From an uncultured Prevotella sp. (GTDB taxonomy: Bacteria > Bacteroidota > Bacteroidia > Bacteroidales > Bacteroidaceae): a stretch of 37,417 nucleotides of DNA. This document shows, one piece after another, positions 1,484 through 17,710 of this stretch. The notes under the pieces were generated by a model. That model ran no database searches, was not told where the DNA came from, and worked only from the letters and a program-made list of their open reading frames with translations. Each line of letters begins with the position of its first letter. The stretch's first letter is position 1. The DNA lies in assembly GCA_946184025.1 (NCBI GenBank), contig CAMHEA010000003.1, positions 1-37,417 on the forward strand, given 5' to 3'. Both the position numbers and the translations under genes were made by a program.

Positions 1484-1942
1484 ATGGCAGTACGTTACAA
1501 ACTGTACAAGAGCAACCGAAAGAATTCTCCGATGAACGGAATGGTGTATGCGCGGGCAGCTGTGCAGAACACGGTGACCCTGAACGAGCTGGCGAATCGC
1601 ATCCAGCAGAATTGCACGGCTAAGAAGTCGGACGTGAAGGCTGTGCTCGACGAGCTGGTGGAGGTGATGACCACCGAACTCCAGAACGGCAACCGCGTGA
1701 AGCTGGATGGCTTCGGATCGTTCAAGATCAACATCGCATCGAGTCCGGCAACATCGTTCAATACCTTCAACGTGGCCAAGAACATCAAAGGCTTGCGCGT
1801 GATTTTCCAGCCGGAGGTGCACACCAGCAAGGCTACGGGTCGTCAGAAGACGTTCCTCAGCGGCTGTGCCGTGAAGGAGCTGGACCCTTACCTCGTGGAG
1901 AAGAACGACGGTGAGGGCGAAGAGACTGGTGGCGAAGGATAG
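1484..1942 (+). CDS. HU-family (HU-HIG type) DNA-binding protein
   Basis: This 152-residue member of the extended HU/IHF family binds DNA non-specifically. It begins 'MAVRYKLYKSNRK' as the Bacteroidetes HU-HIG proteins do. The HU fold covers about residues 30-115: a helical 'TLNELANRIQQNCTAKKSDVKAVLDELVEVM', then 'LQNGNRVKLDGFGSFKI', the region that leads into the DNA-embracing arm. The tail (residues 135-152) is acidic and glycine-rich. An AAGGAAAAG lies 10 nt before the ATG. The gene lies 62 nt after the M15 peptidase with no promoter between, so the two are probably co-transcribed. This is the paralogue type that accompanies smalltalk and amidase/peptidase genes, not the housekeeping HU. 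Confidence 0.9.
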   Translation: MAVRYKLYKSNRKNSPMNGMVYARAAVQNTVTLNELANRIQQNCTAKKSDVKAVLDELVEVMTTELQNGNRVKLDGFGSFKINIASSPATSFNTFNVAKNIKGLRVIFQPEVHTSKATGRQKTFLSGCAVKELDPYLVEKNDGEGEETGGEG

Positions 1943-2076
1943 TCTGCATGGCATGAGGAGCTCCGGCTCCTCTGCCTTTGTCTTCCTTGGTCTATAAGTA
2001 TGAATGTCTGAAGTTTCTTAACTACACAAATCTTGAGAACATCCGAAACTTAAATGAATGTAAAAAGGAAAAGAAT

Positions 2077-2169
2077 ATGAAGAAGGAATATTGGAAACTG
2101 ATTTTGCAGGTAATCATCAGCGTGCTGACAGCACTGGGAACCACGGTCGGAATAACGAGCTGTGGGTAA
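2077..2169 (+). CDS. Smalltalk-family small membrane protein
   Basis: The protein has 30 residues: a short charged start MKKEYWK, one hydrophobic segment (about residues 8-24) and the ending ITSCG. Length, start and ending match the Bacteroidetes 'smalltalk' family, usually encoded directly after an HU-like protein, as here. The start at 2077 is preceded by AAAAAGGAAAAG. The open frame reaches back to 1978, but the family begins at this Met. Function is unknown. A single membrane helix beside a peptidoglycan hydrolase recalls a pinholin and endolysin pair, but that is only an inference. Confidence 0.85.
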   Translation: MKKEYWKLILQVIISVLTALGTTVGITSCG

Positions 2170-10646: not shown

Positions 10647-12626
10647 ATGGCAGAAAACGACGATTTCATCGAAAAAAAAGCTCCTGTTCAGGGCAAATAT
10701 GACGACGAGAATATCCGGACACTGACGGGTATTCAACACATCCGTCTGCGTCCGGGAATGTATATCGGTCGCCTGGGTGACGGCTCACTGCCCGAAGATG
10801 GTATTTATGTACTGCTCAAGGAGGTTATTGACAACTCTATCGATGAGTTCAAGATGAATGCCGGCAAGCGTATTGAGGTGGACATTGACGAGAATCTTCG
10901 GGTCTCGGTACGCGACTATGGACGTGGCATTCCCCAAGGAAAACTGGTCGAAGCCGTTTCCGTGCTCAATACAGGAGGCAAGTACGACTCCAAAGCATTC
11001 AAGAAAAGCATCGGTCTCAACGGTGTCGGCGTGAAAGCCGTTAATGCCCTGAGTGCTCGTTTTGAGGTGAAATCATATCGGGAGGGCAAGGTGCGTAGCC
11101 TGACCTTTGAACGAGGAGAACTCAAGAGCGACACGACGGAAGCCACCGACGACGAAAACGGTACCTATATTTTCTTCCAGCCTGACGGGGACGAGAAACT
11201 GTTCAAGAACTACCAGTTCCAGAACGACATTGTGGAAACGATGCTCCGCAACTATACCTATCTGAACCAAGGGCTCATCATCATGTACAACGGACGGCGT
11301 ATCGCCAGCCGTAACGGTCTGCAAGACCTTCTGACGGACAACATGACCACCGACGGTCTCTATCCGATTGTACACATGAAGGGCGACGACATCGAGATTG
11401 CCTTTACCCACACCAACCAATATGGTGAGGAATACCATTCCTTTGTCAACGGACAACATACCACGCAGGGCGGCACCCACCAGAGTGCCTTTAAGGAGCA
11501 TATAGCCCGCACCATCAAGGAGTATTTCGGCAAATATGAATATGGCGACATCCGAAACGGTATCGTTGCTGCCATCGCCATCAATGTGGAAGAACCGGTC
11601 TTTGAAAGTCAGACGAAAATTAAGCTCGGTTCCACGCAGATGGCACCCGACGGAGAAAGTATCAACAAGTATGTAGGCGATTTCATCAAGCAGCAGGTGG
11701 ACAACTACCTGCATATCCACAATGAAGTGGCTGAAGCCATAGAGGCAAAAGTCAAGGAGAGCGAACGTGAACGTAAGGCGATGGCAGGTGTAACTAAGCT
11801 CGCACGCGAACGTGCCAAGAAGGCAAACTTGCATAACCGCAAGCTGCGCGACTGCCGAATCCACTACTGCGACGTGAAGAATGACCGGAAGGAAGAGTCC
11901 AGTATCTTCATCACTGAGGGCGATTCTGCCAGCGGCAGTATCACCAAGAGCCGCGACGTGAACACACAAGCCGTATTCTCTCTGCGCGGAAAACCCCTCA
12001 ACTCGTTCGGACTTACCAAGAAAGTAGTCTATGAAAATGAAGAGTTCAACCTGCTGCAAGCGGCACTCGACATTGAAGACGGTCTTGAGACACTCCGTTA
12101 CAACAAGGTCATCGTTGCTACTGATGCTGATGTCGACGGCATGCACATCCGGTTGCTCATCATCACCTTCTTCCTCCAGTTCTTCCCTGAGCTCATCAAG
12201 AAAGGACACGTCTACGTCTTGCAGACACCACTCTTCAGAGTGCGCAACCGCCGTACCAAGATCAAGAACAAAAAAATCATTGCCGAAGCTGATGCACGGC
12301 GTAGTGAAAGAGAGAAAAAGACCGATTTCATTACGCACTACTGCTACAGCGAGGAAGAACGTCTGCGTGCCATCAAAGAACTGGGACCAGATCCGGAGAT
12401 AACCCGCTTCAAGGGACTTGGAGAAATTTCGCCTGAGGAGTTCGTTCACTTTATCGGTCCGGACATGCGACTCGAACAGGTGACCCTCCACAAGAACGAT
12501 CAGGTGCAGAAATTGCTCGAATATTATATGGGCAAGAACACCATGGAGCGGCAGAACTTCATCATTGACAACCTCGTTATCGAAGAAGACAACTTCAACG
12601 AAGGCGAGGAAGACGACAACCAGTAA
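10647..12626 (+). CDS. parE: DNA topoisomerase IV subunit B
   Basis: This is the 659-residue ATPase subunit of topoisomerase IV, which decatenates daughter chromosomes together with ParC. The GHKL ATPase shows 'EVIDNSIDE' (Asn63 for Mg-ATP), 'DYGRGIP' (90-96) and '[14 protein letters not shown]' (123-136). The Toprim domain has the catalytic Glu424 in 'EGDSASG' and 'DADVDGMH' (493-500). '[10 protein letters not shown]' (446-455) and the C-terminal 'RFKGLGE' match ParE-type rather than GyrB-type proteins. The end is acidic ([14 protein letters not shown]). 'AGGAACGAGAAAGGAAG' precedes the ATG. The partner parC is not in the window. The gene probably shares the promoter at 8187 and is followed by ybeY after 22 nt. 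Confidence 0.92.
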
Positions 12627-12648
12627 GCAACCTGTAAATTACCAAAGG

Positions 12649-13059
12649 ATGATAACCTACAATACCGACGGCGTGAAGATGCCGAAAATAAGAAAGCGTG
12701 AGACCACGGCGTGGATTAAAGCCGTGGCGGCCACCTACGGACGACGTGTAGGAGAGGTGGGATATATGTTTGTTGATGACGAGAAAATCCTTGAAGTCAA
12801 CAACGAATACCTCGGACACGACTACTATACGGACATTATTACCTTCGACTATGACGAAGGAGACATCATCAATGGAGACTTGGTTATCTCCCTTGACACC
12901 GTGCGTACAAATGCGGAGAAGTTTGGAAAGGACTACGATGAAGAACTCCACCGCGTCATCATACACGGAATCCTGCACCTTTGTGGCATCAATGACAAAG
13001 GACCAGGAGAAAGAGAACTGATGGAAGCAGCAGAAAACAAGGCGTTATCAATGCGATAA
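12649..13059 (+). CDS. ybeY: Endoribonuclease YbeY (rRNA maturation factor)
   Basis: This 136-residue single-domain metal-dependent RNase acts in 16S rRNA 3'-end maturation and ribosome quality control. Diagnostic segments: 'INGDLVISLDTV' and 'RVIIHGILHLCGINDKGPGERELM'. In the usual H-x3-H-x5-H zinc site the first two histidines are present, but the third position is Asp ('GIND'). I believe this is common in Bacteroidetes homologues but have not checked. The start at 12649 follows the parE stop by 22 nt; the frame is open further into parE, but YbeY proteins begin near this point. The stop codon lies inside a terminator hairpin. Confidence 0.88.
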   Translation: MITYNTDGVKMPKIRKRETTAWIKAVAATYGRRVGEVGYMFVDDEKILEVNNEYLGHDYYTDIITFDYDEGDIINGDLVISLDTVRTNAEKFGKDYDEELHRVIIHGILHLCGINDKGPGERELMEAAENKALSMR

Positions 13060-13076
13060 CGCCTTGTCTTCTTTTA
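13037..13076 (+). terminator. Intrinsic terminator overlapping the ybeY stop
   Basis: A perfect 13-bp stem (13037-13049 with 13055-13067) closes a 5-nt loop and is followed by 'cttctttt'. The left arm encodes the final codons of ybeY and the stop codon TAA (13057-13059) lies in the right arm. Confidence 0.9.
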
Positions 13077-13151
13077 ATTTGTTTTTAAGTAGGTGTCTAT
13101 TTAAATGTATATAAAAAAGTTTCTGGACATATAATAAAAATCTTTTTTTTC

Positions 13152-13183
13152 TTTGTCGACATAAAAAAATTTTCATATCATTG
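13152..13183 (+). promoter_or_regulatory. Promoter of the repeat-peptide/fimbrillin locus
   Basis: TTTG (13152-13155), a 20-nt spacer and TATCATTG (13176-13183), a one-base deviation from TAnnTTTG, follow an AT-rich tract at 13085-13170. The predicted transcript has a leader of about 280 nt before the gene at 13468. Confidence 0.65.
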
Positions 13184-13188
13184 CCACG

Positions 13189-13467
13189 ATGTTAGCCTTT
13201 TGTTGGGCGGGCATCATATTTTTGAGGGATTAAGAGAGACGGTATGTCTATTCTTGTAGCTGGGAATCTGGAAAATTTCAATGCAACACAAGATGGCATA
13301 GTGGGATTCTCCGCGCGTAAGCGTGGGCTGACATCACTATATCTTTGTTGCACAGGTAATTTCCAGAACCTCCAGTTAGAGATGTAGAACATATCAGTTC
13401 CACGTCTTTTTCGTTTATAAACATTGGTGTGCTGAGGGACTGAACACCGCGAATAGAAAAAAAGGAA
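13189..13467 (+). promoter_or_regulatory. Long structured leader with short reading frames
   Basis: A 14-codon frame (MLAFCWAGIIFLRD) begins at 13189, 5 nt after the -7 box, and stops at 13233. A 47-codon frame begins at 13244 (MSILVAGNLENFNATQDGIV...) and stops at 13387; it matches nothing I know. The RNA can fold back: CTGGAAA (13268-13274) pairs with TTTCCAG (13360-13366), and TGCAACA (13282-13288) with TGTTGCA (13346-13352). Leader peptide plus foldback would suit attenuation, but this is inference. No known riboswitch class is recognised. Confidence 0.4.
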
Positions 13468-13767
13468 ATGAAGAAATCAGCAAAATCAATTTTTCCGGCT
13501 GAATCCATCCGTGGTGACAGCCGACGCAGAGTCTATCTCTGCCCCTGCACGGAGTTGTTGCCTGTGGAGTGTACTCTCATGTGGTTTGTTGGGTCATTGA
13601 AAGAACGGAGTAACTATGGCCAAGGAAATGACCCTTTTGAACAGATTGAGTTTGTGGATGATGATGTGCAAGAGCGTTCTGACTACGAATGGGGTGGCAA
13701 TCCCTTTGGTTCCACAGCAAGCAGTCGCAGCTATCGTGCTGGTGGAAATCCTTTCAGCGACATTTAA
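13468..13767 (+). CDS. 99-aa protein with three C-terminal YxxGxxPF repeats
   Basis: The frame begins MKKSAKSIFPAESIRGDSRR after 'aaaaaaaggaa', which supports this ATG. Residues 1-45 include 'RVYLCPCTELLPVE' and a short hydrophobic 'CTLMWFVGSL'. The tail holds three related segments: RSNYGQGNDPF (47-57), RSDYEWGGNPF (70-80) and RSYRAGGNPF (87-96). They are separated by acidic or Ser-rich linkers, and the protein ends three residues after the last copy. I do not recognise a family. It lies 73 nt before a lipoprotein gene with no promoter or terminator between, so the two are probably co-expressed. Repeats of a short aromatic/Gly/Pro-Phe unit at the C-terminus are typical of multi-core precursor peptides, but no modifying enzyme is nearby. 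Confidence 0.6.
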   Translation: MKKSAKSIFPAESIRGDSRRRVYLCPCTELLPVECTLMWFVGSLKERSNYGQGNDPFEQIEFVDDDVQERSDYEWGGNPFGSTASSRSYRAGGNPFSDI

Positions 13768-13840
13768 ACAATCTGAAACTGTGACTATAACCTTAGGCAA
13801 ATAAAAGAAAAAAAGAGTAACATCCTTAAAAAACAAGACA

Positions 13841-15451
13841 ATGAACAGAATTAGAAATTTTTCCCAGTGGCTGTCAACTTCGACGGCAATAATGCTGTTA
13901 GCACTTGTCGCATCGTGTAGCAGCAGTGACAATGACACAGAAGGAATCTGGGCGGAGCCTGTTGCACAATCCGCACCCCTACACTTCGTGGCACGATTGG
14001 AGCCCATGAGCAGTGATATTAACAATGCTAAAGCCATCAACCTCGGCGAAGATATCTGCGAGGATGCCGTGGAACCCGGCGCAAAGTACGGTGCTCCACG
14101 CCACATCATCGTTGCTCCTGATGAGGATGCCACGGAAATCGAAGCGAAATGGGCTGAAGGTGAGAAAGTGGGCCTCATCTATACGGTTGGTAATACAAAG
14201 TATCTGAGCGAAGCCAGAGTCGAGAGTGTCGCGGATAATGGTGAAGCCAGAATCGAAGGTTTTCTTGAATATGCCCCCACAGACAATACGCCAGTCAAGA
14301 TCGTCTACCCATACGCTGCTGCTGATAAGGATGAGGAGAGCGGTGTCAAGGCTGGCTATCTGAAGGATGGTCAGGATGGAACCATCGCTACAATCTCCAG
14401 CACGTTCGACGTGGCTACTGCCGACGGCTACCTTGACATTAACGGAACAGATGCCACTTTGAAGCAGAAGGTTGCACTCGAAAACCAGTATGCCATCCTA
14501 CGGCTGCGCTTCATCACTGCGGGTAGTTCTCCAATAAGCAATATCCACCGTCTCTATGTAAGCAACGAGTCTACTGACGAAGACATTATCATCGTCCATG
14601 GCAGCAACCTTGAAACCATCTATGTGGTCATGGAGCCGGTGAGCACTCAAACAACTCTTCGCTTTACCATCATTAGCGACGAGGCTACATATAGCAATAC
14701 CGCCTCGCTGCAAAGTCTCGAAGCAAGCAAATACTATAAATCCTCGTTGGGACTGAATATCACAGGTGCCGGTGCTGTCGACCTCGGCCTGCCCAGCGGC
14801 AGGTTATGGGCAACCTGCAATGTCGGTGCAGAAAAGGAAAACTATGCTCCTGAGGCTTATGGTGACTTCTTCGCCTGGGGCGAGACGACGGGGTATAGTA
14901 GTGCTAATAATCCTCCAACAGATGGTCGTTCTTTCTGCTGGGATGAATACACAAAATTCGGCACCCACAGCGATGCAGCTCCCGACTATGGTTTTATAAA
15001 GTACAACACAACCACTCCTACTCCCATACTCGAAGCCGCGAACGATGATGCCGCCTTCGTCAACTGGGGCAGAAGGTGGCGCATGCCGACGAAAACTGAG
15101 TTTGATGAGTTGCTCACGGCATATCCTGAAGTCGCAGATCCCGTTTCCGGCAAGTACAGAGCATGGCTTAACAACTACAATAGCACGGGTGTAGCTGGTC
15201 TTGCCTTCTACGATGCCTCAAACAACGTCTTGCTTTTCTTGCCCGCTGCGGGCTTACGTTACTTAAATAGTCTGAGTAATCAGACGACAGGAGGTCGCTA
15301 CTGGTCGAGTTCACTCTACCAGGATGATGTCCAGATTGCTTGGTACTTGAGTTTCAATAGGGATCCGAACTATTCCATTATGAGTAACAACGGCGGCCGT
15401 TTGTATGGTCGCTCTGTTCGCCCCATTGTCGCCGATAAGAGTACAATTTAA
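13841..15451 (+). CDS. Fimbrillin-like lipoprotein with C-terminal Fib_succ_major/DUF1566-type domain
   Basis: This 536-residue surface lipoprotein has a signal peptide ending 'LVASC' (Cys26). Residues about 45-305 resemble fimbrillin (Mfa/FimA-like) sandwich domains: 'WAEGEKVGLIYTVGN', 'KIVYPYAA', 'LENQYAILRLRF' and 'SLEASKYYKSSLGLN'. Residues 313-530 form a second domain opening 'VDLGLPSGRLWATCNVGA', with 'FAWGETTGY', 'WGRRWRMPTKTEFDELL', 'YWSSSLYQDD' and 'GRSVRPI'. This is the module seen at the C-terminus of many Bacteroidetes surface proteins. It is probably outer-membrane anchored and adhesive or fimbria-associated. No fimbrial assembly genes are nearby, and it is followed by its own terminator. 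Confidence 0.82.
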   Translation: MNRIRNFSQWLSTSTAIMLLALVASCSSSDNDTEGIWAEPVAQSAPLHFVARLEPMSSDINNAKAINLGEDICEDAVEPGAKYGAPRHIIVAPDEDATEIEAKWAEGEKVGLIYTVGNTKYLSEARVESVADNGEARIEGFLEYAPTDNTPVKIVYPYAAADKDEESGVKAGYLKDGQDGTIATISSTFDVATADGYLDINGTDATLKQKVALENQYAILRLRFITAGSSPISNIHRLYVSNESTDEDIIIVHGSNLETIYVVMEPVSTQTTLRFTIISDEATYSNTASLQSLEASKYYKSSLGLNITGAGAVDLGLPSGRLWATCNVGAEKENYAPEAYGDFFAWGETTGYSSANNPPTDGRSFCWDEYTKFGTHSDAAPDYGFIKYNTTTPTPILEAANDDAAFVNWGRRWRMPTKTEFDELLTAYPEVADPVSGKYRAWLNNYNSTGVAGLAFYDASNNVLLFLPAAGLRYLNSLSNQTTGGRYWSSSLYQDDVQIAWYLSFNRDPNYSIMSNNGGRLYGRSVRPIVADKSTI

Positions 15452-15494
15452 GAGAATTGTAATATTTTAATACTTAATCTTTTATAGTTTGAAG

Positions 15495-15527
15495 CTGCCG
15501 CTGTTGTGATGACAGCGGCAGTTTTTT
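15495..15527 (+). terminator. Intrinsic terminator
   Basis: CTGCCGCTGT (15495-15504) pairs perfectly with ACAGCGGCAG (15512-15521) over a 7-nt loop, followed by TTTTTT. It lies 43 nt after the fimbrillin-like gene. Confidence 0.95.
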
Positions 15528-15641
15528 GAATATTCTCATGGTGAAAGGTACTTGGCAATGCTCGGATCCCCCAAAAAATTGTCTAAAAGATATGGATACG
15601 ATGTAGGGTGTATATTGCACTGGCTTTATTCCAGAAAAAGA

Positions 15642-17255
15642 TTACTCCCGCAAGGCTTTCTGCTTATCGGATATTAGTTCTTTGCTTTCCAGCAGGCTGA
15701 CGGCTTTCTTGACAATGTCGCTCTGCTCGTTCCATACCTTGAAGTATTCGTTCATGCCCCAAAGGTCGCGCACGATGAGTGCCTTGAGTTGGTGGGTGAG
15801 ATAGGGAAGGGTGCGCAGGCGTTCCTCATCGTCCTTGGGACGTACGTCTTGTTTGTCGCCTTCGGCCATGATGTCGTCGAGGAGCGAGGTCGGAACGGTG
15901 AAGGTGGCGTTGAAATCGTCGAAGGTCTTATACCGTTTCTTGAGTTCCTTGCGGTGCCGGTCTATGTATTTCAGGCTCTGGTTGATAACGATGTTCTTGA
16001 CCATAAGCTGTCGATGGAACTTGGTATATTTCAAGGTGTCGAGCGGAACAAACTCGTCAGGCATGATGCCTCCGCCTCCGTAGACGGTACGATGCAGCCG
16101 GAGGGTTTCGAAACGGAGGGAATCCGCAAAGTGGATACTGTCGCGGTTGGTCAGTTCCCCGCGTTTAAGCCGGTTCTCGATGTCTTTCTGATAGTCGGCC
16201 TTCTCGCCTTTCTTGTAAGGCTTTTGTATACAGCGGCCACTGGGCGTGTAGTAGTGGGCGATGGTGAGGCGTATCATGGAGCCGTCCGGGAGGTCAAGGG
16301 GGCGTTGCACGAGCCCTTTTCCGAAAGAGCGGCGACCGACGACGGTACCGCGGTCATGGTCTTGGAAAGCTCCGGTTATGATTTCTGCGGCCGAGGCGGA
16401 ATACTCGTCGATGAGCACGGTGACGGGGAGCGAGCGCAGTTTGCCACGTCCATGGGCGCGGTATTCGTTGTGTCTCACCTTGCGTCCTTCGGTATAGACA
16501 ATCATGTCGCCATCTTCAAGAAATTCGTTCATCACGCGCACGGCACTCTCCAGATAGCCGCCACCGTTGTCCTGAAGGTCCAGGATGAGGTGTTCCATGC
16601 CTTGTGCGCGAAGGGAGTCAACGGCTCCCATGAACTCGTCGTAGGTTTTGGCACCGAAACTCTCAATACGGATGTAGCCGATGCGTGGCCGAATCATGTA
16701 GGATGCGTTGATGGAGTGGACGGGTATCTTGTCGCGCTTAACCATGAACGTGAGCGGTTCTGTCACGCCGCGGCGCACAATGCCGAGCTTCACCATGGTA
16801 CCCTTCTTTCCACGCAGGCGTTTCATAATTTCAGTGCGGGCCATCTTCACGCCGGCAATGAGCGTGTCGTTGACCATGACGATGCGGTCGCCGGCTTGGA
16901 TGCCCACTTTCTCTGACGGGCCGTTCACGGTAGGCTGTACTACGAGCAACGTGTCTTCGACCATGTTGAATTGTACGCCGATACCTTCAAAGTCGCCTTG
17001 CAGCGGTTCGTTCATGGCCTTGGTCTCCTTGGCATCGGTATAGTTGGAGTGGGGATCAAGCTTCTCGAGCATGCCACGGATGGCATCTTCCACCAGTCGC
17101 TCTTCGTCGACGGAGTCCACATAGAGGTTGTTGATGGCCACCTCGGCCATCTGTAGCTTTCTCAGCGGGCTGTTGCCCCCGAGGTTAAGATGTATCTGTG
17201 CCATGCCCTGCATGGTGATGAGCAGGCAGAGGGCTGTAAGGGTCTTTCTTTTCAT
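15642..17255 (-). CDS. S41 family C-terminal processing peptidase
   Basis: This 537-residue tail-specific (CtpA/Prc-like) serine protease has a signal peptide (MKRKTLTALCLLITMQGMAQ) and is therefore probably periplasmic. A PDZ domain covers about residues 85-175 ('GDFEGIGVQFNMVEDTLLVVQP', 'GIQAGDRIVMVND'). The protease core follows: 'YIRIESFGAKTYDEF' and 'HLILDLQDNGGGYL'. The catalytic serine is probably Ser286 ('YSASAAE') and the lysine Lys313 ('RRSFGKGLVQ'). A C-terminal region of about 190 residues is helical and charged. The ATG overlaps the coaD stop by 4 nt (17252-17255), so the two are translationally coupled. Such enzymes trim or degrade envelope proteins; the substrate here is unknown. 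Confidence 0.92.
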   Translation of the reverse strand: MKRKTLTALCLLITMQGMAQIHLNLGGNSPLRKLQMAEVAINNLYVDSVDEERLVEDAIRGMLEKLDPHSNYTDAKETKAMNEPLQGDFEGIGVQFNMVEDTLLVVQPTVNGPSEKVGIQAGDRIVMVNDTLIAGVKMARTEIMKRLRGKKGTMVKLGIVRRGVTEPLTFMVKRDKIPVHSINASYMIRPRIGYIRIESFGAKTYDEFMGAVDSLRAQGMEHLILDLQDNGGGYLESAVRVMNEFLEDGDMIVYTEGRKVRHNEYRAHGRGKLRSLPVTVLIDEYSASAAEIITGAFQDHDRGTVVGRRSFGKGLVQRPLDLPDGSMIRLTIAHYYTPSGRCIQKPYKKGEKADYQKDIENRLKRGELTNRDSIHFADSLRFETLRLHRTVYGGGGIMPDEFVPLDTLKYTKFHRQLMVKNIVINQSLKYIDRHRKELKKRYKTFDDFNATFTVPTSLLDDIMAEGDKQDVRPKDDEERLRTLPYLTHQLKALIVRDLWGMNEYFKVWNEQSDIVKKAVSLLESKELISDKQKALRE

Positions 17256-17710
17256 TGCTTGTCGGATTGGGGAAGGAAGATGCTGACATCGCGTCCAAAG
17301 TGGCGAAGTTCTCTTACTAAACTGGAGGAAACGGCCGACAAATGCGGTTCTGCCAACAGCAGCAGGGTTTCCACTCCACTCAGTTGGCGGTTGATGTCGG
17401 CTTGTTCGCGTTCGTATTCAAAGTCTTTCACCGTCCTTACACCTTTTATGATATATCGGGCACCTTCGGCCTGGGCAAAGTCCACGGCCAGGCCATGGAA
17501 AACCTTTACCTCCACGCGGGGTTCTTTGGCGTAGAGGTGTCGGATGGCAGCAACGCGTTCGTCGGCTGCCGTCATGTCTGGTTTGTGCACGTTGTCGCCT
17601 ACCACGCCAATAACAATCCTGTCAAAGAGCGGCAGTGCGCGTCTGACAATGCTGTCGTGCCCGATGGTAAAGGGATCGAAAGTCCCCACGAAGATACCTG
17701 TTCTTTCCAT
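17252..17710 (-). CDS. coaD: Phosphopantetheine adenylyltransferase
   Basis: This 152-residue enzyme catalyses the fourth step of coenzyme A synthesis: 4'-phosphopantetheine + ATP to dephospho-CoA. The nucleotidyltransferase motif 'GTFDPFTIGH' lies at residues 9-18 and the second nucleotide motif 'VSSSLVREL' near 126-134. 'IIKGVRTVKDFEYE' is the substrate-binding region. Thr replaces the more common Ser in GSFDPxT. The start at 17710 lies 14 nt after the stop of the specificity-subunit gene. With no promoter visible between them, coaD may now depend on read-through from the restriction-modification genes or on a promoter inside them. The S41 protease follows with a 4-nt overlap. Confidence 0.93.
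   Translation of the reverse strand: MERTGIFVGTFDPFTIGHDSIVRRALPLFDRIVIGVVGDNVHKPDMTAADERVAAIRHLYAKEPRVEVKVFHGLAVDFAQAEGARYIIKGVRTVKDFEYEREQADINRQLSGVETLLLLAEPHLSAVSSSLVRELRHFGRDVSIFLPQSDKQ

Follow-up and report, generated by a model that had tools for sequence, protein, structure and literature searches.

Among the described leader RNAs, some c-di-GMP (GEMM) riboswitches control surface genes, and EAR, put and JUMPstart are structured or conserved RNAs that closely follow the promoters of operons for surface functions or mobile elements. The leader element examined here resembles the GEMM riboswitches in that one leader architecture is scattered before many unrelated genes, but it differs from them in fold and size and has no Rfam match. 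Like the antitermination leaders EAR, put and JUMPstart, it is structured and lies soon after a promoter; unlike them, it matches no Rfam family and precedes a much wider set of genes. Structured RNA candidates of Bacteroidales include Bacteroidales-1 (RF01693), Bacteroides-1 (RF01694) and Bacteroid-trp (RF01692) (PMC2864571). These are Rfam families, yet the element matches none of them even at permissive E-values. In B. thetaiotaomicron, 13.5% of mRNAs have a 5′ UTR longer than 100 nt, and a riboswitch is predicted in about 2% of those (PMC7366714). A search of the DNA analysed here with Rfam 15 at curated cut-offs left the element without a family, as did permissive E-values in 30 loci. No description of it was found in the main texts of the open literature searched, and the unnamed candidates of PMC8040213 may include it. 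The element is probably an undescribed gene-control element.

The DNA analysed, hereafter the window, is a stretch of 37,417 nt from an uncultured Prevotella sp. (contig CAMHEA010000003.1). The initial annotation had pointed to a 99-aa ORF with three related C-terminal units, ending three residues after the last of them, and all of these features are present. It had also proposed a multi-core precursor peptide behind an attenuating leader, and here our reading departs from it. With a probability of roughly 0.6, positions 13176–13467 are the promoter and 5′ leader of an operon, within which 13232–13411 is a copy of an unnamed class of cis-acting switch leader RNA found in Bacteroidales and their relatives (Table 1).

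Table 1. Features of the leader and of the two genes behind it (positions in the window).
Feature	Position	Strand	Basis
−7 promoter box TATCATTG, one mismatch to TAnnTTTG	13176–13183	+	sequence
5′ hairpin of the transcript	13188–13215	+	MFE fold of the window; hairpin at that place in many copies
Core leader RNA element, ~180 nt	13232–13411	+	cmsearch R1 197.8 bits, R2 152.9 bits; own-genome repeats
P1 hairpin, AGAC 13237–13240 / GTCT 13246–13249	13237–13249	+	93.6% of cells paired, 96 copies
P0, GAGAC 13236–13240 / GTCTT 13404–13408, alternative partner of the 5′ strand	13236–13408	+	94.2% of cells paired
Pseudoknot helix, TCTTGT 13252–13257 / ACAAGA 13288–13293	13252–13293	+	95% of cells paired, 56 diverse copies
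P2 long-range helix, TAGCTGG 13257–13263 / CCAGTTA 13372–13378 and TCTGGAAA 13267–13274 / TTTCCAGA 13360–13367	13257–13378	+	covariation
P3 stem with P3b hairpin CCGCGC-GTAA-GCGTGG 13311–13326	13282–13352	+	P3b 99.3% of cells paired
P5 hairpin, GTAGAAC / GTTCCAC	13384–13403	+	84% of cells paired; both-sides changes at five pairs
P6/P7, CAGTTCC 13395–13401 / GGGACTG 13436–13442 in a hairpin loop (arms 13426–13430, 13444–13448)	13395–13448	+	excludes P5
99-aa small protein, three C-terminal repeat units	13468–13767	+	ORF; coding paralogue in own genome
Lipoprotein, N-terminal part putatively fimbrillin-like, C-terminus FISUMP/Lcl_C-like	13841–15451	+	weak Pfam/NCBIfam matches; C85 paralogue

The leader of about 280 nt and its foldback exist as first described: 13188–13467 folds at −92.2 kcal/mol (z = −4.3), and no shuffle was as good. 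A kissing-loop reading of the foldback was dropped, as both strands form one nested long-range helix. Compensatory changes in this helix were already visible in an alignment of eight copies. For the covariation count, 96 copies were aligned with MAFFT without structural information; 89.7% of cells were paired, compared with 77.3% in shuffles and 39–49% in slid controls; 621 cells were changed on both sides (control, 209) and the covariation score was 0.40 (control, 0.19). The two parts of the long helix, P2a and P2b, were paired in 95.7% and 97% of cells, with both-sides changes at 13 of 16 pairs (7/7 and 6/9, respectively) and as many as six kinds of pair at one position. This diversity of pairs per position exceeds the expectation from descent alone, measured against controls that do not fully remove relatedness. 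Three pairs of the pseudoknot showed both-sides changes, and genuine compensated variants of it, TTTGGT/ACCAAA among them, occur at low frequency. These compensatory changes support one fold, as expected of a structured cis-regulatory leader RNA. G.U cells outnumber A.C cells by about 2:1, which fits selection on the sense RNA.

At both ends of the element there are pairings that exclude each other and could serve as an expression platform, namely P1/P0 and, in a subset of copies, P5/P6. Two partners are open to the 5′ strand, which reads AGAC in this genome and elsewhere AAGC or AGGC: a complementary local strand (P1) and a complementary 3′ end (P0). Across the 96 copies, P1 alternates between AGAC/GTCT and AAGC/GCTT, and the 5′ strand and its partners in P1 and P0 all change largely in step. 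For the 3′ strand CAGTTCC, the partner lies either behind it (P5) or ahead of it (P6); the forward partner is GGGACTG, in a hairpin loop some 20 nt short of the start codon. P6 pairing was found in 60 of 141 copies, whereas shuffled downstream sequence gave 3.5 and none of 200 partner permutations exceeded 43; the flanking P7 arms accompany it in 48 of these 60 copies (control, 22.9). The leader thus stands as a cis-acting structured element with mutually exclusive pairings, whereas its proposed action through a leader peptide does not. The 14-codon frame (13189–13233) and the 47-codon frame (13244–13387) exist in the window but are not conserved: the short frame from the same ATG stops at codon 6 in most own-genome copies and gives mostly 4–9 codons in other copies, and no conserved short ORF was found in the leader. 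A leader peptide was rejected for this reason. An intrinsic terminator at P5 is not general either, as the 3′ end of many copies is CGCTTC with mixed bases behind it, not a clean terminator U-run.

The element is a dispersed repeat with a wide distribution. Searching the own genome with 13060–13467 at the DNA level returned eight more strong copies with 73–84% identity. Two models were used, R1 built from eight own-genome copies and R2 from 56 diverse copies; R2 finds the element at 13 places in the own genome, some of them partial. R1 matches occur in 236 of 398 genomes of the genus, in 146 of 251 genomes of the family (20 of 30 genera) and in 59 of 247 genomes of the order (46 of 174 sampled genera). 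R2 matches 14 of 198 genomes in the phylum sample, the window's own included. Beyond the order sample, its matches extend to further families of the class and to a small number of genomes from other orders, the lowest E-value being 7e-17. The element is also present in Prevotella sp. oral taxon 299 (NC_022111.1) and in two unannotated phage-like fecal records. BLAST gave no match in 5,426 E. coli genomes, and the exact element pattern was not found in viral contigs. Three half copies in the own genome (L049, L228 and L229, at C42:410–588, C42:11959–12134 and C25:7111–7280) are nearly identical over the first ~70 nt of the element but lack the partner strand of P2, and BspA-like genes still lie 71–146 nt downstream of them. 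Other own-genome copies sit at the ends of contigs C162, C102 and C112, and the repeat therefore probably breaks assemblies. Opposite-strand pairs of the element also occur close together, at L061 (1501–1683, minus strand, and 1940–2114, plus strand) and L128 (77–240, minus, and 401–581, plus).

The placement of the element relative to promoters and genes is consistent. Of 99 copies, 91 are preceded by TAnnTTTG, the known −7 box consensus of the phylum (PMC7366714), at a distance of 15–114 nt (mostly 44–110 nt), in comparison with 8% of shuffled and 6% of coding controls. In 124 of 135 cases the element shares its strand with the ORF that follows it, and in nine the two are on opposite strands, whereas the upstream neighbours divide into 47 on the same strand and 32 on the opposite one. 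From the element to the next ORF the median distance is 56 nt (interquartile range 47–75 nt), the starts being uncurated first-ATG calls. Such a consistent position and orientation before genes is expected of a cis-regulatory leader. One copy (L048, 1498–1679) has no close ORF and lies 311 nt upstream of an acetylornithine-aminotransferase-like gene.

The genes behind the element are mixed, with a tendency toward the cell surface. By a simple hydropathy rule, 79 of 117 next genes are apparently exported, compared with 60 of 179 other ORFs of the same loci. Most own-genome copies with a readable downstream gene precede BspA-type surface proteins, and lipoproteins are also found behind the element. 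Pfam assigned the next genes to BspA LRR_5 (16), DUF285 (8), HSDR_N (7), zinc ribbon (3), DarT (2) and TerB (2), with single cases of a beta-lactamase and an aminoglycoside adenylyltransferase-type domain; NCBIfam added a lincosamide nucleotidyltransferase match in one member, and there was one ZorA among the next genes. On named plasmids, the element lies 47 nt before blaMUN-1 (pBUN1 of B. uniformis); Parabacteroides distasonis has it ahead of a DarT-like gene, and an AbiE-type pair likewise follows a copy. The defence and resistance loci that carry it (L141 3997–4169; L161; L142 4009–4179; L227 3001–3142; L124) include blaMUN-1, a nucleotidyltransferase-type resistance-like gene, a DarT-like gene, an AbiE-type pair and a ZorA-like gene. 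The downstream genes are too mixed to point to any ligand.

In the window, the gene behind the leader encodes the 99-aa protein, whose units are RSNYGQGNDPF (13606–13638), RSDYEWGGNPF (13675–13707) and RSYRAGGNPF (13726–13755). None of 200,000 shuffles of the protein contained even one unit, for a pattern that had been fitted to this protein. A paralogue with 51–52% identity is encoded on contig C85 of the own genome, directly upstream of a lipoprotein that is 72% identical to the window lipoprotein. Differences between the two small-protein genes fall 13/9/28 on codon positions 1/2/3 over 51 codons, indicating that the frame is coding. The protein and five relatives match no Pfam or NCBIfam model, and an AlphaFold prediction from a four-sequence alignment was uninformative, with a mean pLDDT of 51 and a pTM of 0.13. 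The only two candidate relatives from a contig scan with the protein (L006 and L007) were discarded as false, being antisense to longer, more plausible genes.

Relatives of the small protein were collected by profile search in 239 genomes of the genus. They begin with MKRKxYEKPxMxVVELxxxxxLLAGS and carry one to four copies of a C-terminal unit Y-x-x-G-G-N/D-P-F (for example DYTNGGDPF, DYPSGGDPF and DYGNGGDPF), two in L204 and four glycine-rich ones (RSGYGDGGSGF) in L208, L214 and L217; in some relatives the units have diverged. A fimbrillin-like lipoprotein is the next ORF, within ~70 nt, in about 19 of the best 24 relatives, a typing made by eye from the lipobox and N-terminus that Pfam backs weakly, with a weak Mfa_like_1 match in one partner. 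In the window the gap between the two ORFs is 73 nt, and the lipoprotein has weak matches to Pfam Lcl_C and NCBIfam FISUMP, each below the cut-off. The homologues that the initial annotation proposed to look for are thus found, with the unit and the downstream lipoprotein kept, and the outcome that it named as refuting did not arise; the repeat number, which it also proposed to compare, varies. Among the best matches inspected, only the lipoprotein follows most relatives. The arrangement recalls the operons of Mfa_like_1 (fimbrillin-like) lipoproteins, as the small protein and its relatives sit just upstream of such lipoproteins, although the small protein has no family model and the window lipoprotein has sub-threshold FISUMP/Lcl_C matches only. 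The small protein belongs to a common but unnamed family tied to fimbrillin operons and separate from the leader RNA class. Tentatively, it is more likely to act with the lipoprotein, as a structural or assembly partner, than to yield a processed peptide.

A further, very common class of small proteins of 45–110 aa (MKKxYxxPxTExxxxxxxxMxxxS, with an acidic tail), whose N-terminus resembles that of the family above, was seen in L012–L039 and, for example, at L005 1498–1695, often 15–25 nt downstream of secreted proteins ending in ...GLYIVNGKKVVVK; its tested members match no family model. In L086, a 518-aa open frame with the small-protein N-terminus (MKTKHNYEQPSVKVVNMPTANQLLAGS) starts 61 nt behind a leader element and is either a fusion or a frameshift.

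The leader and the small protein are mostly independent and do not form a fixed pair, and the leader is not specific to the small protein. Of 22 comparable small-protein operons elsewhere, only one carries the leader (L220, a divergent copy). The C85 paralogue operon has a different leader, since neither R1 nor R2 matches there. That region (L002 1800–2290) is another long leader with its own −7 box, and its similarity to other places in the genome is confined to the first ~49 nt.

Given these observations, we weighed other explanations. The RNA may be a constitutive leader that shields the mRNA from decay or Rho, or promotes read-through as put and EAR do, without sensing, and that accessory and newly acquired genes keep for reliable expression. 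The strong, stable fold, the place right behind the promoter and the mixed accessory genes, mobile cargo included, all suit this explanation; since both alternative pairings of the same strands are conserved, which is more than a shield needs, we consider it unlikely. The promoter box, together with the T-rich stretch that many copies have behind a 3′ hairpin, would also be expected of a stand-alone small RNA that acts in trans and merely lies upstream of genes, but the fixed orientation, the narrow spacing to the next ORF, the P6 partner located downstream toward the start codon and the missing clean U-run in many copies make this improbable. Selection could instead act on folded DNA, as in a mobile or recombining hairpin of the REP, MITE or attC-like type, given the many dispersed copies, the half copies and the occurrence on plasmids and beside mobilisation genes. 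Against this stand the upstream promoter, the fixed spacing to start codons, the strand bias of G.U over A.C and the 16–27% difference between copies within one genome, and a DNA hairpin is improbable as well. Orientation, spacing, promoter and G.U bias are what disfavours both the small RNA and the DNA hairpin.

The multi-core precursor under leader-peptide attenuation, as first proposed, is hardly credible. Three C-terminal units, up to four in relatives, and an LLAGS-like step ahead of the units in relatives are compatible with it, but the units vary in number (one to four) and in sequence, the short frames of the leader are not conserved, and no modification, peptidase, transporter or export gene was recognised beside it in the ORF list around 11800–17700, where family searches covered the small protein, the lipoprotein and YbeY.

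For the preferred reading, a cis-acting switch leader, we counted the dispersed own-genome repeats, the wide distribution, covariation, P6, the promoter box, the same-strand ORF, the spacing and the G.U bias, as well as the same placement before blaMUN-1 and the DarT-like gene on plasmids and the lack of a match in E. coli. Counted against it were the mixed downstream genes, which suggest no ligand, the restriction of P6/P7 to 60 of 141 copies, the half copies that still precede BspA-like genes, and the copy 311 nt from its gene. Under the switch reading, the leader RNA would be transcribed from the −7 box, and a signal, either a ligand or a protein, would favour one set of pairings. The 3′ part, by forming P5 or P6/P7, would then set the efficiency of ribosome start at the next ORF, and the leader would in this way set translation, or less likely transcription, of the gene behind it. 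The alternative pairings appear to be parts of a switch; switching itself and the translation-level step are what we infer from the sequences. In the window, the leader would control the small repeat protein and the fimbrillin-like lipoprotein, and elsewhere other surface proteins and mobile cargo genes.

More tentatively, the element may represent a new Bacteroidia class of riboswitch or protein-responsive leader, which would respond to one common cellular signal and so coordinate a dispersed set of genes for surface, fimbria-like, defence and antibiotic-resistance functions, plasmid genes included. A search model now exists for a leader that would otherwise be read as an anonymous intergenic repeat, and the fold is specific enough for testing by a few compensatory mutants. 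A leader class found in many genera, in many copies per genome and before surface-protein, beta-lactamase and defence genes would give gut and oral Bacteroidales a common point of control over how they appear to the host, to phage and to drugs.
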